Shown here: positions 19,203 to 21,618 of the stretch, one piece after another
Layout of the letters: each line of letters begins with the position of its first letter
Position numbering within the stretch: position 1 is the stretch's first letter
Assembly: GCA_001789395.1 (NCBI GenBank)
Contig: MFZK01000010.1
Span: forward strand, 36,628-77,755
Origin: Candidatus Roizmanbacteria bacterium RIFCSPHIGHO2_02_FULL_37_13b
Lineage (GTDB): Bacteria > Patescibacteriota > Microgenomatia > UBA1406 > HO2-37-13b
Length of the DNA stretch: 41,128 bases
Direction: 5' to 3'
Notes under the pieces: generated by a model
Told to the model about the DNA's origin: nothing
The model's input: the letters and a program-made list of their open reading frames with translations, nothing else
The model's database searches: none
Position numbers and translations under genes: made by a program

Positions 19203-20342
19203 ATGTCTGGAGAACCGGGTGCGGCTGAACAACCAAAAGGTGTCGATGCCTTAACACTCCATCCTGATGTATATGCAAGTCGTGGTTTGGGCAGAGTCGG
19301 AAACCTGACCGCTGTGCTTGATGCTCACCAAAAAAGCAATGCCGAGTTTTGGCTTGGTCTTCAAGACAAATCCGTTCTGGTACGGCCGAATATCGTAGAT
19401 CCTGAATTTCCTCAGGGTTGCAGCCATCCTGATGCCTTAAAAAGCCTTTTGGAAAAATTAATAACTTCAGGCGTATCCAAAATTGATATCGGTGATCTTT
19501 CTTCTGCTGATTATTATGGCACTCACCGGCAAACAAAACCTCAAGACATTTATAAAGGTATTGTGGATGGTTTATCACAAAGATATCCTCAGGTAGAAAT
19601 CGCACTTAAAGATTTGCGCGAGTTGAACCAAATCCCCCTTACCGGAGAATTATCGGTCATCGATACGTCATCTTATACTGCTTTGGTGAATCTAGCTCTT
19701 CCAAAAGAACATGGTTAGTATTATTTTAGCGGCGGAGCAAAGCATCTGATGGGTTTAGTCGATCCTTCAAAGCGAAGAGACTATTTTCATCCGGACTTAC
19801 CCGAAGGTGCCCAGCTTCGTGTCCATAATGATCCGGTCAAATCTCAACAAATCAGGGGCACTATCACTGAAACTGATCCTGCTCGAGCAAATATTGAATA
19901 CAATGCTAAGTTAAGTGCGGCTGCCGAATCGGAAGTTGATTCGCTGATCATGAGAAGAATGGCTACATTTATTCAGGCAACAGTAAATCATTTTGCACGA
20001 AAAGGCCAAGCTGTGTTAACAGTCGTTGATGGTTATGAAACCCTGACAGGTCACGAACATCATGGTGTTTTAAAAAAAACTGATTTTGCAGCTATTGGTT
20101 TAAATCCGGTAGCTGTTGATATTTCAGTAGCTCGACACCTCGGTCTATTAAACCAAACAGGCTATCTAACTAATTTAGCTCATTTGGTGCGACCGGAAAT
20201 GCAAGCCGGTGATTTACCTGAAGCGCCTTCACGTAGACTCAAACGTGTAGCCACGGATATCCAAATTTATGATGATAAAAGCTACGGGTTCGGACTTGGA
20301 GTTGTTCCTGATGAAACACCGTCACGATGGGAAGCTTTTTAA
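19203..20342 (+). pseudogene. DUF362-family protein interrupted by one in-frame TAG
   Basis: Two ORFs in the same frame (19203-19718 and 19749-20342) form one DUF362-like protein of about 379 residues. The first part has VLVRPNIVDPEFPQGCSHPDAL and IDIGDLSSADYYG and ends NLALPKEHG. After TAG (19716-19718) the frame continues YYFSGGAKHLMGLVDPSKRR, the normal core following the HG motif. Nothing is missing except the residue at the stop. It may be a nonsense mutation, a read-through site or a sequencing error. TAG ends several other genes here, so it is a real stop codon. Reinitiation at ATG 19749 could yield the C-terminal half. No ferredoxin-type cysteine cluster is visible. Confidence 0.75.
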
Positions 20343-20572: not shown

Positions 20573-20612
20573 TTGCATAGATTTGCATAGATATGGTATA
20601 ATATGCACAGAT
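20573..20612 (+). promoter_or_regulatory. Phased 10-bp direct repeats overlapping a TATAAT promoter
   Basis: TTGCATAGAT occurs at 20573-20582 and again at 20583-20592. The next 10 bp contain the -10 box TATAAT (20597-20602), and ATGCACAGAT follows at 20603-20612. The copies are in exact 10-bp register, about one helical turn, so bound proteins would lie on one DNA face. A weaker match (TTCTGTAGAT) is at 20555-20564. The array sits directly before the helix-turn-helix/GHKL gene and is a likely autoregulatory operator. Confidence 0.65.
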
Positions 20613-20626
20613 TTACGAATATATAT

Positions 20627-21355
20627 ATGCAAAAACTATTATCAATCGGGCAAACCGCCAAGTTTATAGGAGTATCCATAGATACCCTAAGGCGATGGGA
20701 TTCTTCCGGTCGGTTACGTTCAATACGCAGTGGTCCGAAAGGTCACCGGTTTTATAATCGGTCAGACATCGATCATTACTTACAAAATGTTGAAGTTATC
20801 GCACGGAATTGGGCAGAATCAACTCATCCATCAATTCCAAATCCTGATATATACAGTCAGACTCGTGATGTATTTCAAGCCAGACTCGAATCATTTCAAT
20901 CGGCATTAAGTAGAATTACACCAATTAATATTGTTTCCTTAGTGACAGCGATTGCCGGTGAAATCGGTAATAACTCATTCGACCATAATTTAGGGAATTG
21001 GCCCGATATTCCCGGCGTATTATTCTCATATTCTATTCGGGACAGGAAAGTAGCACTGGCGGATCGTGGTCAAGGAATATTAACAACATTAAAGAGAGTT
21101 CGTCCAAATTTAGTAAGTTCCAGTGAAGCTATAAAGATGGCTTTTACAGAAACTATTTCCGGTAGATACCCGGAATCTAGAGGAAATGGATTGAAGTTTG
21201 TAAGATCAATTATCGTAAAAAATCCGTTTTCACTTTGCTTTCAAACCGGAAATGCACAATTATATTTAAAATATAATGATGTAGAATTAAATATTAAACA
21301 AACTGAAACCATTATAAATGGATGTTATGCAATTATAAATTTCGAGGATTTATAA
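20627..21355 (+). CDS. MerR/excisionase-type helix-turn-helix fused to a GHKL (histidine-kinase-like) ATPase domain
   Basis: From ATG 20627 the protein is 242 residues. Residues 4-52 form a winged helix-turn-helix of MerR/excisionase type (LSIGQTAKFIGVSIDTLRRW, then SGPKGHRFYNRSDIDHYL). After a linker, residues 100-240 form a GHKL ATPase: N-box GEIGNNSFDH (E112, N116), G1 box DRGQG (146-150) and G2 box GNGL (186-189). No phospho-acceptor histidine domain is visible, so it resembles an RsbW-like kinase more than a two-component sensor. Its stop overlaps the next start as TAATG. The pair suggests a partner-switch regulator that binds DNA itself. An upstream ATG at 20603 lies inside the promoter repeats and is rejected. 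Confidence 0.82.
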   Translation: MQKLLSIGQTAKFIGVSIDTLRRWDSSGRLRSIRSGPKGHRFYNRSDIDHYLQNVEVIARNWAESTHPSIPNPDIYSQTRDVFQARLESFQSALSRITPINIVSLVTAIAGEIGNNSFDHNLGNWPDIPGVLFSYSIRDRKVALADRGQGILTTLKRVRPNLVSSSEAIKMAFTETISGRYPESRGNGLKFVRSIIVKNPFSLCFQTGNAQLYLKYNDVELNIKQTETIINGCYAIINFEDL

Positions 21356-21618
21356 TGATTATTGAATTAAAAAAATTTGGGACAACTCTTGTATCCCGTC
21401 CTGCAGGAAAAGAAGCGTGGTTAGCTTTTCAGCCTGTATTAAAAGAAACGTTATTAAAGGAAGAGATTAAAGTTGATTTTGATGGAGTAGCAGTTTTAAC
21501 TCCTTCTTGGGCAGATGAATTCTTAACTCCACTTAAAAATATGTTTAAAAAAAAATTATCGTTAATAAATAGCAGTAATCCATCTGTAAAAGCAACTCTG
21601 TCGATTTTAAATCTATAG
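21355..21618 (+). CDS. STAS-like domain protein (DUF4325)
   Basis: The 87-residue protein resembles the STAS-like DUF4325 family: an N-terminal strand MIIELKKFGTTLVSRPAG, VDFDGVAVLTPSWADEFLTPL as the central strand and helix, and a final SLINSSNPSVKATLSIL. In classical STAS anti-anti-sigma factors a Ser/Thr at the start of the helix is phosphorylated by a GHKL kinase; the TPSWAD segment lies at the matching place. It overlaps the HTH-GHKL gene by one base, so equal and coupled production is likely. It is probably that protein's partner. Confidence 0.78.
   Translation: MIIELKKFGTTLVSRPAGKEAWLAFQPVLKETLLKEEIKVDFDGVAVLTPSWADEFLTPLKNMFKKKLSLINSSNPSVKATLSILNL

Follow-up and report, generated by a model that had tools for sequence, protein, structure and literature searches.

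Can a kinase of the GHKL type bind DNA itself, and so control the promoter from which both it and its STAS partner are made? This question is raised by a two-gene locus in the 1.16-Mb draft genome (93% complete) of Candidatus Roizmanbacteria bacterium RIFCSPHIGHO2_02_FULL_37_13b, within a stretch of 41,128 nucleotides that we call the window (Table 1). A first-pass annotation had described a helix-turn-helix (HTH) fused to a GHKL ATPase domain with the motifs E112/N116, DRGQG and GNGL, its gene overlapping that of a small STAS-like protein by one base (TAATG). Both descriptions hold; Pfam recognizes the HTH (MerR, 35.6 bits; HTH_17, 33.6 bits), the GHKL motifs are invariant and the fold matches, and the kinase stop codon (21353-21355) shares its last base with the start codon at 21355 of a gene whose product matches DUF4325 (Pfam, 31.1 bits). 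The HTH-GHKL gene likely starts at 20627 and not at the ATG at 20603, because the latter falls within the third repeat and before the point where transcription is expected to begin. Elsewhere in the window, at 19203-20342, two consecutive open reading frames show weak Pfam matches, one to the first third of DUF362 and the next to its last third, and are possibly a single gene broken by a frameshift or a stop.

Table 1. Features of the kinase/STAS locus, in window coordinates
Feature	Position	Strand	Basis and remarks
Operator word 1, TTGCATAGAT	20573..20582	+	sequence; word conserved upstream of 82 related loci
Operator word 2, TTGCATAGAT, exactly 10 bp after word 1	20583..20592	+	sequence
-10-like box TATAAT, inside the array	20597..20602	+	sequence
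Degenerate operator word, ATGCACAGAT, same 10-bp register	20603..20612	+	sequence
HTH-GHKL protein, 242 aa	20627..21355	+	ORF list, Pfam, structure model; alternative start 20603
BldC/excisionase-type winged HTH, residues 4-54	20636..20788	+	Pfam, PDB sequence matches, fold match
Codon of Asp19 (recognition helix; predicts base 3 of the word; corresponds to BldC Lys26)	20681..20683	+	
GHKL N-box E112..N116..H120 (EIGNNSFDH)	20960..20986	+	alignment of 50 relatives
GHKL G1 box DRGQG (D146-G150)	21062..21076	+	D146, G148, G150 invariant
GHKL G2 box GNGL (G186-L189)	21182..21193	+	invariant
DUF4325 STAS protein, 87 aa	21355..21618	+	Pfam PF14213; starts on last base of kinase stop codon
Codon of Ser51 (LTPSWADE motif), candidate phosphorylation site	21505..21507	+	P50-S51-W52 invariant

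What kinds of domains are these? The predicted structure of the HTH-GHKL protein has a pLDDT of 89.8, and its head is a MerR-like winged HTH with the BldC fold: its sequence matches BldC in the PDB (6ama/6amk), a profile alignment sets residue 19 against BldC Lys26 and Arg23 against BldC Arg30, and its model superimposes on the BldC-DNA structure 6ama, one of its nearest folds, with a TMt of 0.82 and an rmsd of 1.8 A over 54 aa. The NCBIfam BldC model scores 29.1 bits on this head, under its 77-bit cut-off, and no NCBIfam model rises above its own cut-off. In plasmid and phage records the HTH is the sole matching part, found in unrelated proteins, and the viral contigs searched gave no match; in PADLOC, the HTH matches no models beyond mads_1 and one for a type II methyltransferase, and no defence assignment results. 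Pfam is nearly blind to the GHKL part, with HATPase_c_2 found in only 1 of 50 members; however, an alignment of 50 relatives shows no variation at E112, N116, H120, D146, G148, G150 and G186-L189. In fold, the model matches the ATPases of GyrB, Hsp90 and topoisomerase II, as expected of a Bergerat fold with N, G1 and G2 boxes. The earlier proposal had been staked on such a fold. Neither Pfam nor the secondary structure of the model places a STAS domain between the HTH and the GHKL domain. The partner consists of STAS only, lacking a C-terminal winged HTH (wHTH), and P50-S51-W52 is invariant in a 31-sequence alignment, with PSW in all listed partners. A pseudo-fused GHKL+STAS model, built from the in-frame pair of locus L110 with the stop read as Gln, reaches a pLDDT of 92.9 and a pTM of 0.74, which are per-residue and overall confidences only, and we leave it out as evidence of a complex.

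Is the upstream repeat an operator? The repeated words in 10-bp register that the first-pass annotation had seen around the -10 box are there: the series TTGCATAGAT, TTGCATAGAT, ATGGTATAAT, ATGCACAGAT runs in exact register, with two perfect words, TATAAT and a degenerate word in whose place several relatives carry a perfect TGCATAGAT. The hexamer TTGCAT (20573-20578) within word 1 lies in a poor -35 position, 18 bp before the -10 box; it is because the -35 is poor that the promoter is absent from the promoter-scan list, and because the array is too short that Tandem Repeats Finder, run over the window, reports nothing. The array is unique in the genome, being the sole match at three or fewer mismatches and also under a looser spacing pattern. 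Single 12-mers at one mismatch occur in 12 places compared with 10 for a reversed control, and therefore no regulon emerges from the pattern search; no target other than the protein's own promoter was found. A word similar to the operator word, TCCATAGAT, also lies at 20674-20682 within the recognition-helix codons (S-I-D), probably by coincidence, because relatives use other codons there. With just two perfect copies in the window and no array from Tandem Repeats Finder, one might regard the repeats as chance or as a structural feature, for example AT-rich promoter repeats or the site of another binder, and not as the operator of this protein. In the window alone, the array is indeed modest, and as far as sequence goes, it is the relatives that settle the matter.

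The cassette is scattered through the Patescibacteria, the tiny-genome CPR bacteria. A class search gave 24 strong relatives with a patchy distribution, a phylum search found relatives in 47 of 380 genomes, and a scan of GTDB species genomes yielded 347, of which the best 80 are almost all labelled Patescibacteria; the closest matches to the query protein are labelled Roizmanbacteria. One relative (L068), on a short contig, is labelled Candidatus Methylomirabilis, outside the Patescibacteria; this contig is possibly mis-binned. The proposed search for DUF4325 beside HTH-GHKL genes shows that the pair recurs: in each of the 79 loci whose sequence extends far enough, a STAS gene lies downstream (a pattern recognized 78 of them, and L116 was recognized by eye), as it does in 45 of the 48 loci from the phylum search. 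The repeats, whose absence from related genomes would have counted against the earlier proposal, recur as well. Forward words number 209 in the 130 bases upstream of 82 loci, a 14-fold excess over the 14.7 that Markov shuffles lead one to expect; the reverse strand has 14. The word classes were defined on these same 82 loci, and the reverse strand and the shuffles are therefore the fair comparison. At least two words are present in 73 of the 82 loci, and 110 of 129 distances between neighbouring words fall within 1 bp of multiples of 10.5, mostly 10, 20 and 21. In other words, these are direct repeats in helical phase, as for BldC, with the exception of three loci (L068, L198 and L200) in which the words are partly inverted, e.g. 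TGGGTAGTTT...AAACTACCCA, and head-to-tail binding would therefore not be universal.

Array and protein are linked by how the words vary. They differ between loci mainly at one place, and the difference tracks HTH residue 19: Asp19 goes with TGCATAG or TACATAG, Gln19 or Met19 with TGTATAG, Asn19 with TGGGTAG and Ser19 with TGAGTAG. A fixed rule could be scored in 79 of the 82 loci and agrees in all 79 (57 D/C, 14 Q/T, 4 M/T, 3 N/GG and 1 S/AG), and among held-out loci from the phylum search, all less than 95% identical to any training protein, the 17 that could be scored agree without contradiction; about 100 genomes entered this comparison. Two unscored loci with Gln19, L198 and L200, have TTTATAG, with the expected T at position 3. 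When all protein columns are ranked by information on word class, with the classes of L198 and L200 taken by eye, residue 19 accounts for 1.127 of 1.127 bits, and the second-ranked column for 0.43 bits, 0.31 above its shuffle mean. A tree built from the GHKL part with the HTH left out requires 23 or more changes at residue 19, and the best tree offers 12 phylogenetically independent pairs, over which the code holds. Four of these lie on well-supported branches, all in the same direction and none opposed; with only four such pairs, the sign test by itself falls short of significance (p 0.125). To our knowledge, no readable specificity code had been described for BldC-type HTHs, and none was found in the literature searched. 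In the BldC-DNA structure, base contacts in the major groove are made by two residues, Lys26 and Arg30 (PMC5859096); residue 19 aligns with Lys26, and thus an independent structure picks the same residue as the covariation. The reading of the repeats as chance or structure, very improbable in our estimation, is close to refuted by this one-residue/one-base covariation, which spans 96 scorable loci and occurs only at the BldC base-contact position.

Two further observations concern the same helix. In L072 and L074, the helix is SIENLRNW (E19, N20, N23) and the 10-bp repeat is altered (TTTTAGCAGATT type); L072 is almost identical in its GHKL part to L071 (SIDTLRQW), and comparison of the two points to a very recent joint switch of reader and operator. 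In L121 (L121:1565-3019), the fusion partner of an HTH with helix HRDTLRNW is a type I HsdM methylase, and upstream, on the reverse strand, stand two TTCATAGGT words; here the residue D and the base C fit the code.

Proteins with no such head, or with a different one, serve as controls. In eleven GHKL paralogues that lack the HTH, the 200 bases before the gene hold no word, which also speaks against chance repeats; for one of the eleven, L206, the gene start is uncertain. In L027, L028 and L030, the GHKL-STAS pair carries, where the HTH would otherwise be, an ArsR-like winged helix, and these loci have a common promoter motif, TTGACTTYGTAGTCARTWYTGACTAYAAT, given also as TTGACTTYGTAGTCA...TGACTA near the start; by comparison of these loci, the swap of the DNA-binding domain appears to go together with a swap of the operator. 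Elsewhere in the class, the clear arrays inspected fall into two groups: in L145 and L143 they precede a truncated or split copy of the HTH-GHKL gene, and in L131 and L146-L148 they precede genes for other proteins that have the helix SIDTLRRW. The latter four loci have TGCATAGAT-type arrays, and their proteins are fused to long surface-type regions and adjoin ATP-synthase genes. Additionally, the genome of the window holds a second kinase/STAS pair (L001, or L215:2324-3567; G000:C22), which consists of a 320-aa GHKL protein without a recognized HTH and a DUF4325 protein (56 bits); its GHKL part matches PADLOC's DrmA at 7e-21 and its STAS part weakly, in the same order, which suggests that some DrmA-like proteins may carry the two parts as a fusion.

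Taken together, the code, the absence of the words in HTH-less paralogues and the different operator that comes with a different winged helix strongly support autoregulation by the HTH. The phased array is very probably the operator of the HTH-GHKL protein, which would thus control its own gene, and the earlier idea that the kinase-like protein itself carries a DNA-binding head is supported by the residue-19/base-3 code, the conservation of the array and the paralogue controls. Among known readers of direct repeats, BldC is a lone 68-aa protein that binds 9-bp direct repeats at many targets (PMC5859096; PDB 6AMA, 6AMK). It shares with the window protein a MerR-like winged HTH without a coiled coil, the direct repeats, and Lys26 and Arg30 at the places of residue 19 and Arg23; it differs in that the window HTH is fused to a GHKL domain, keeps a 10-bp register and has one array in the genome. 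Excisionases of phages and integrative and conjugative elements (Gp37, PDB 4J2N; RdfS, PMC11963761) have a related small winged HTH that is able to oligomerize on DNA, but the window HTH is fused to GHKL, its array sits at a promoter and no recombinase was recognized nearby. The HATPase regulator SspH was set aside, since it has the HATPase domain only.

What, then, does the STAS partner do? The first-pass annotation had proposed a switch that controls a promoter without a sigma factor. The absence of a sigma gene from the cassette and the operator at its own promoter favour such control; the claim to novelty does not survive, because a sigma-free kinase/STAS promoter switch has already been published. 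In CapK/CapS (EMBO J 2026), an HTH-STAS-GHKL kinase is paired with a STAS-wHTH partner, and CapS, the STAS protein, is the repressor, acting on palindromes in a sigma-free, autoregulated promoter circuit; CapK is activated by single-stranded DNA (ssDNA), for which its internal STAS and GHKL domains form a predicted groove, deletion of its HTH had no effect and the role of that HTH was left unknown, and an immune operon lies downstream in most loci (PMC13373217). In VapK/VapS/VapC, the kinase has the form STAS-GHKL and comes with a small STAS protein and a PIN toxin; there is no DNA-binding domain (PMC13373217). The window pair resembles CapK/CapS in the adjacency of its genes, the N-terminal HTH on a GHKL kinase and the conserved Ser of the STAS partner, and VapK/VapS in combining a GHKL kinase with a small STAS protein. 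Might it therefore be a stress switch of this kind, sensing DNA damage or phage, with the STAS output running through another protein such as a toxin and the HTH merely setting the expression level? We consider this unlikely, though worth keeping in mind. These are the closest described systems and the Ser is equivalent; VapS is the single PDB match of the STAS profile, albeit not significant (E 0.89); the pair is patchily distributed (28 of 279 genera); and one relative (L213) has a STAS-like N-terminus before its GHKL part and matches the family profile at 4.6e-34, so the GHKL core is common to the STAS-GHKL type and the N-terminal part is what is exchanged. However, no immune operon recurs downstream, no PIN-domain VapC toxin lies beside the window pair (Pfam) or recurs in relatives, and conserved neighbours as targets were rejected altogether, as the largest shared neighbour family reaches 5 of 80 loci. 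Moreover, the window kinase lacks the internal STAS domain of CapK and carries a DNA-binding domain that VapK does not have, and its bare STAS partner lacks the C-terminal wHTH of CapS; we set the pair apart from CapK by its description, namely an HTH head on the kinase, direct repeats, a bare STAS protein and no operon after it.

A classical partner switch in trans has also to be weighed, in which the GHKL protein would hold an alternative sigma factor, the STAS protein would release it and the HTH would be an autoregulatory side feature. The GHKL Ser-kinase and STAS motifs, including the conserved Ser, are those of RsbW/RsbV and SpoIIAB/SpoIIAA, and the genome encodes three sigma70_r2 proteins. 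Those known pairs, however, target sigma factors and lack a DNA-binding domain, whereas here neither a sigma factor nor a PP2C phosphatase is linked: no sigma gene recurs among the neighbours of 80 loci. In switches of the RsbW/RsbV kind, a PP2C-type phosphatase resets the STAS protein; a search covering the SpoIIE and PP2C_2 phosphatase families found no match in the 93%-complete genome. We regard this alternative as improbable, more so than the stress switch.

We favour, as the probable though by no means assured reading, a cassette that brings together a kinase and its substrate, with the kinase acting as the DNA-binding regulator of the operon that encodes it. How might such a cassette work? 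The BldC-like HTH would read the 10-bp-phased direct repeats in its own promoter with one protomer per word, and residue 19 would read the third base of the word; both of these steps are strongly supported. By analogy with BldC, binding may involve several protomers arranged head to tail. Given that the array overlaps the -35/-10/+1 region, its occupancy would block RNA polymerase, and from this position the operon would be expected to repress itself. The GHKL domain may bind ATP and, as RsbW/RsbV and CapK/CapS suggest, phosphorylate Ser51 of the co-made STAS protein; the unphosphorylated STAS protein could dock on the GHKL domain and loosen the HTH oligomer on the array, such that the operon is expressed, and phosphorylation could free the STAS protein and restore repression. 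The lack of a SpoIIE or PP2C_2 match in the genome speaks against this cycle too, since the phosphorylated STAS protein would have to be reset. That the STAS protein sets repression is a hypothesis suggested by the invariant Ser51 and the intact GHKL motifs, and the direction of its effect is a guess. Sequence evidence could hardly make a stronger case for the operator; the switch claim is a good hypothesis.

More broadly, we can imagine, with rather less confidence and at somewhat short of even chances, that the HTH is a portable autoregulatory cap in Patescibacteria. A BldC-type HTH would have been fused to unrelated proteins (the GHKL kinase with its STAS partner, the large surface-type proteins by ATP-synthase genes, the HsdM methylase), each gaining a phased operator at its own promoter, with one residue of the head reading one base of the word; where the fusion partner is the kinase, its ATP/STAS state would set the repressor oligomer directly, and the kinase itself would be the transcription factor. 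Three things are new here: a kinase that carries the DNA-binding head, an operator of phased direct repeats, and the residue code. The cassette would represent a second wiring of the kinase/STAS switch, one with the DNA-reading head on the kinase, and it suggests a testable role for HTH heads such as that of CapK. The code, which can be tested by changing single residues, could also be used to predict operators in uncultured bacteria, whose regulators are beyond the reach of direct study.
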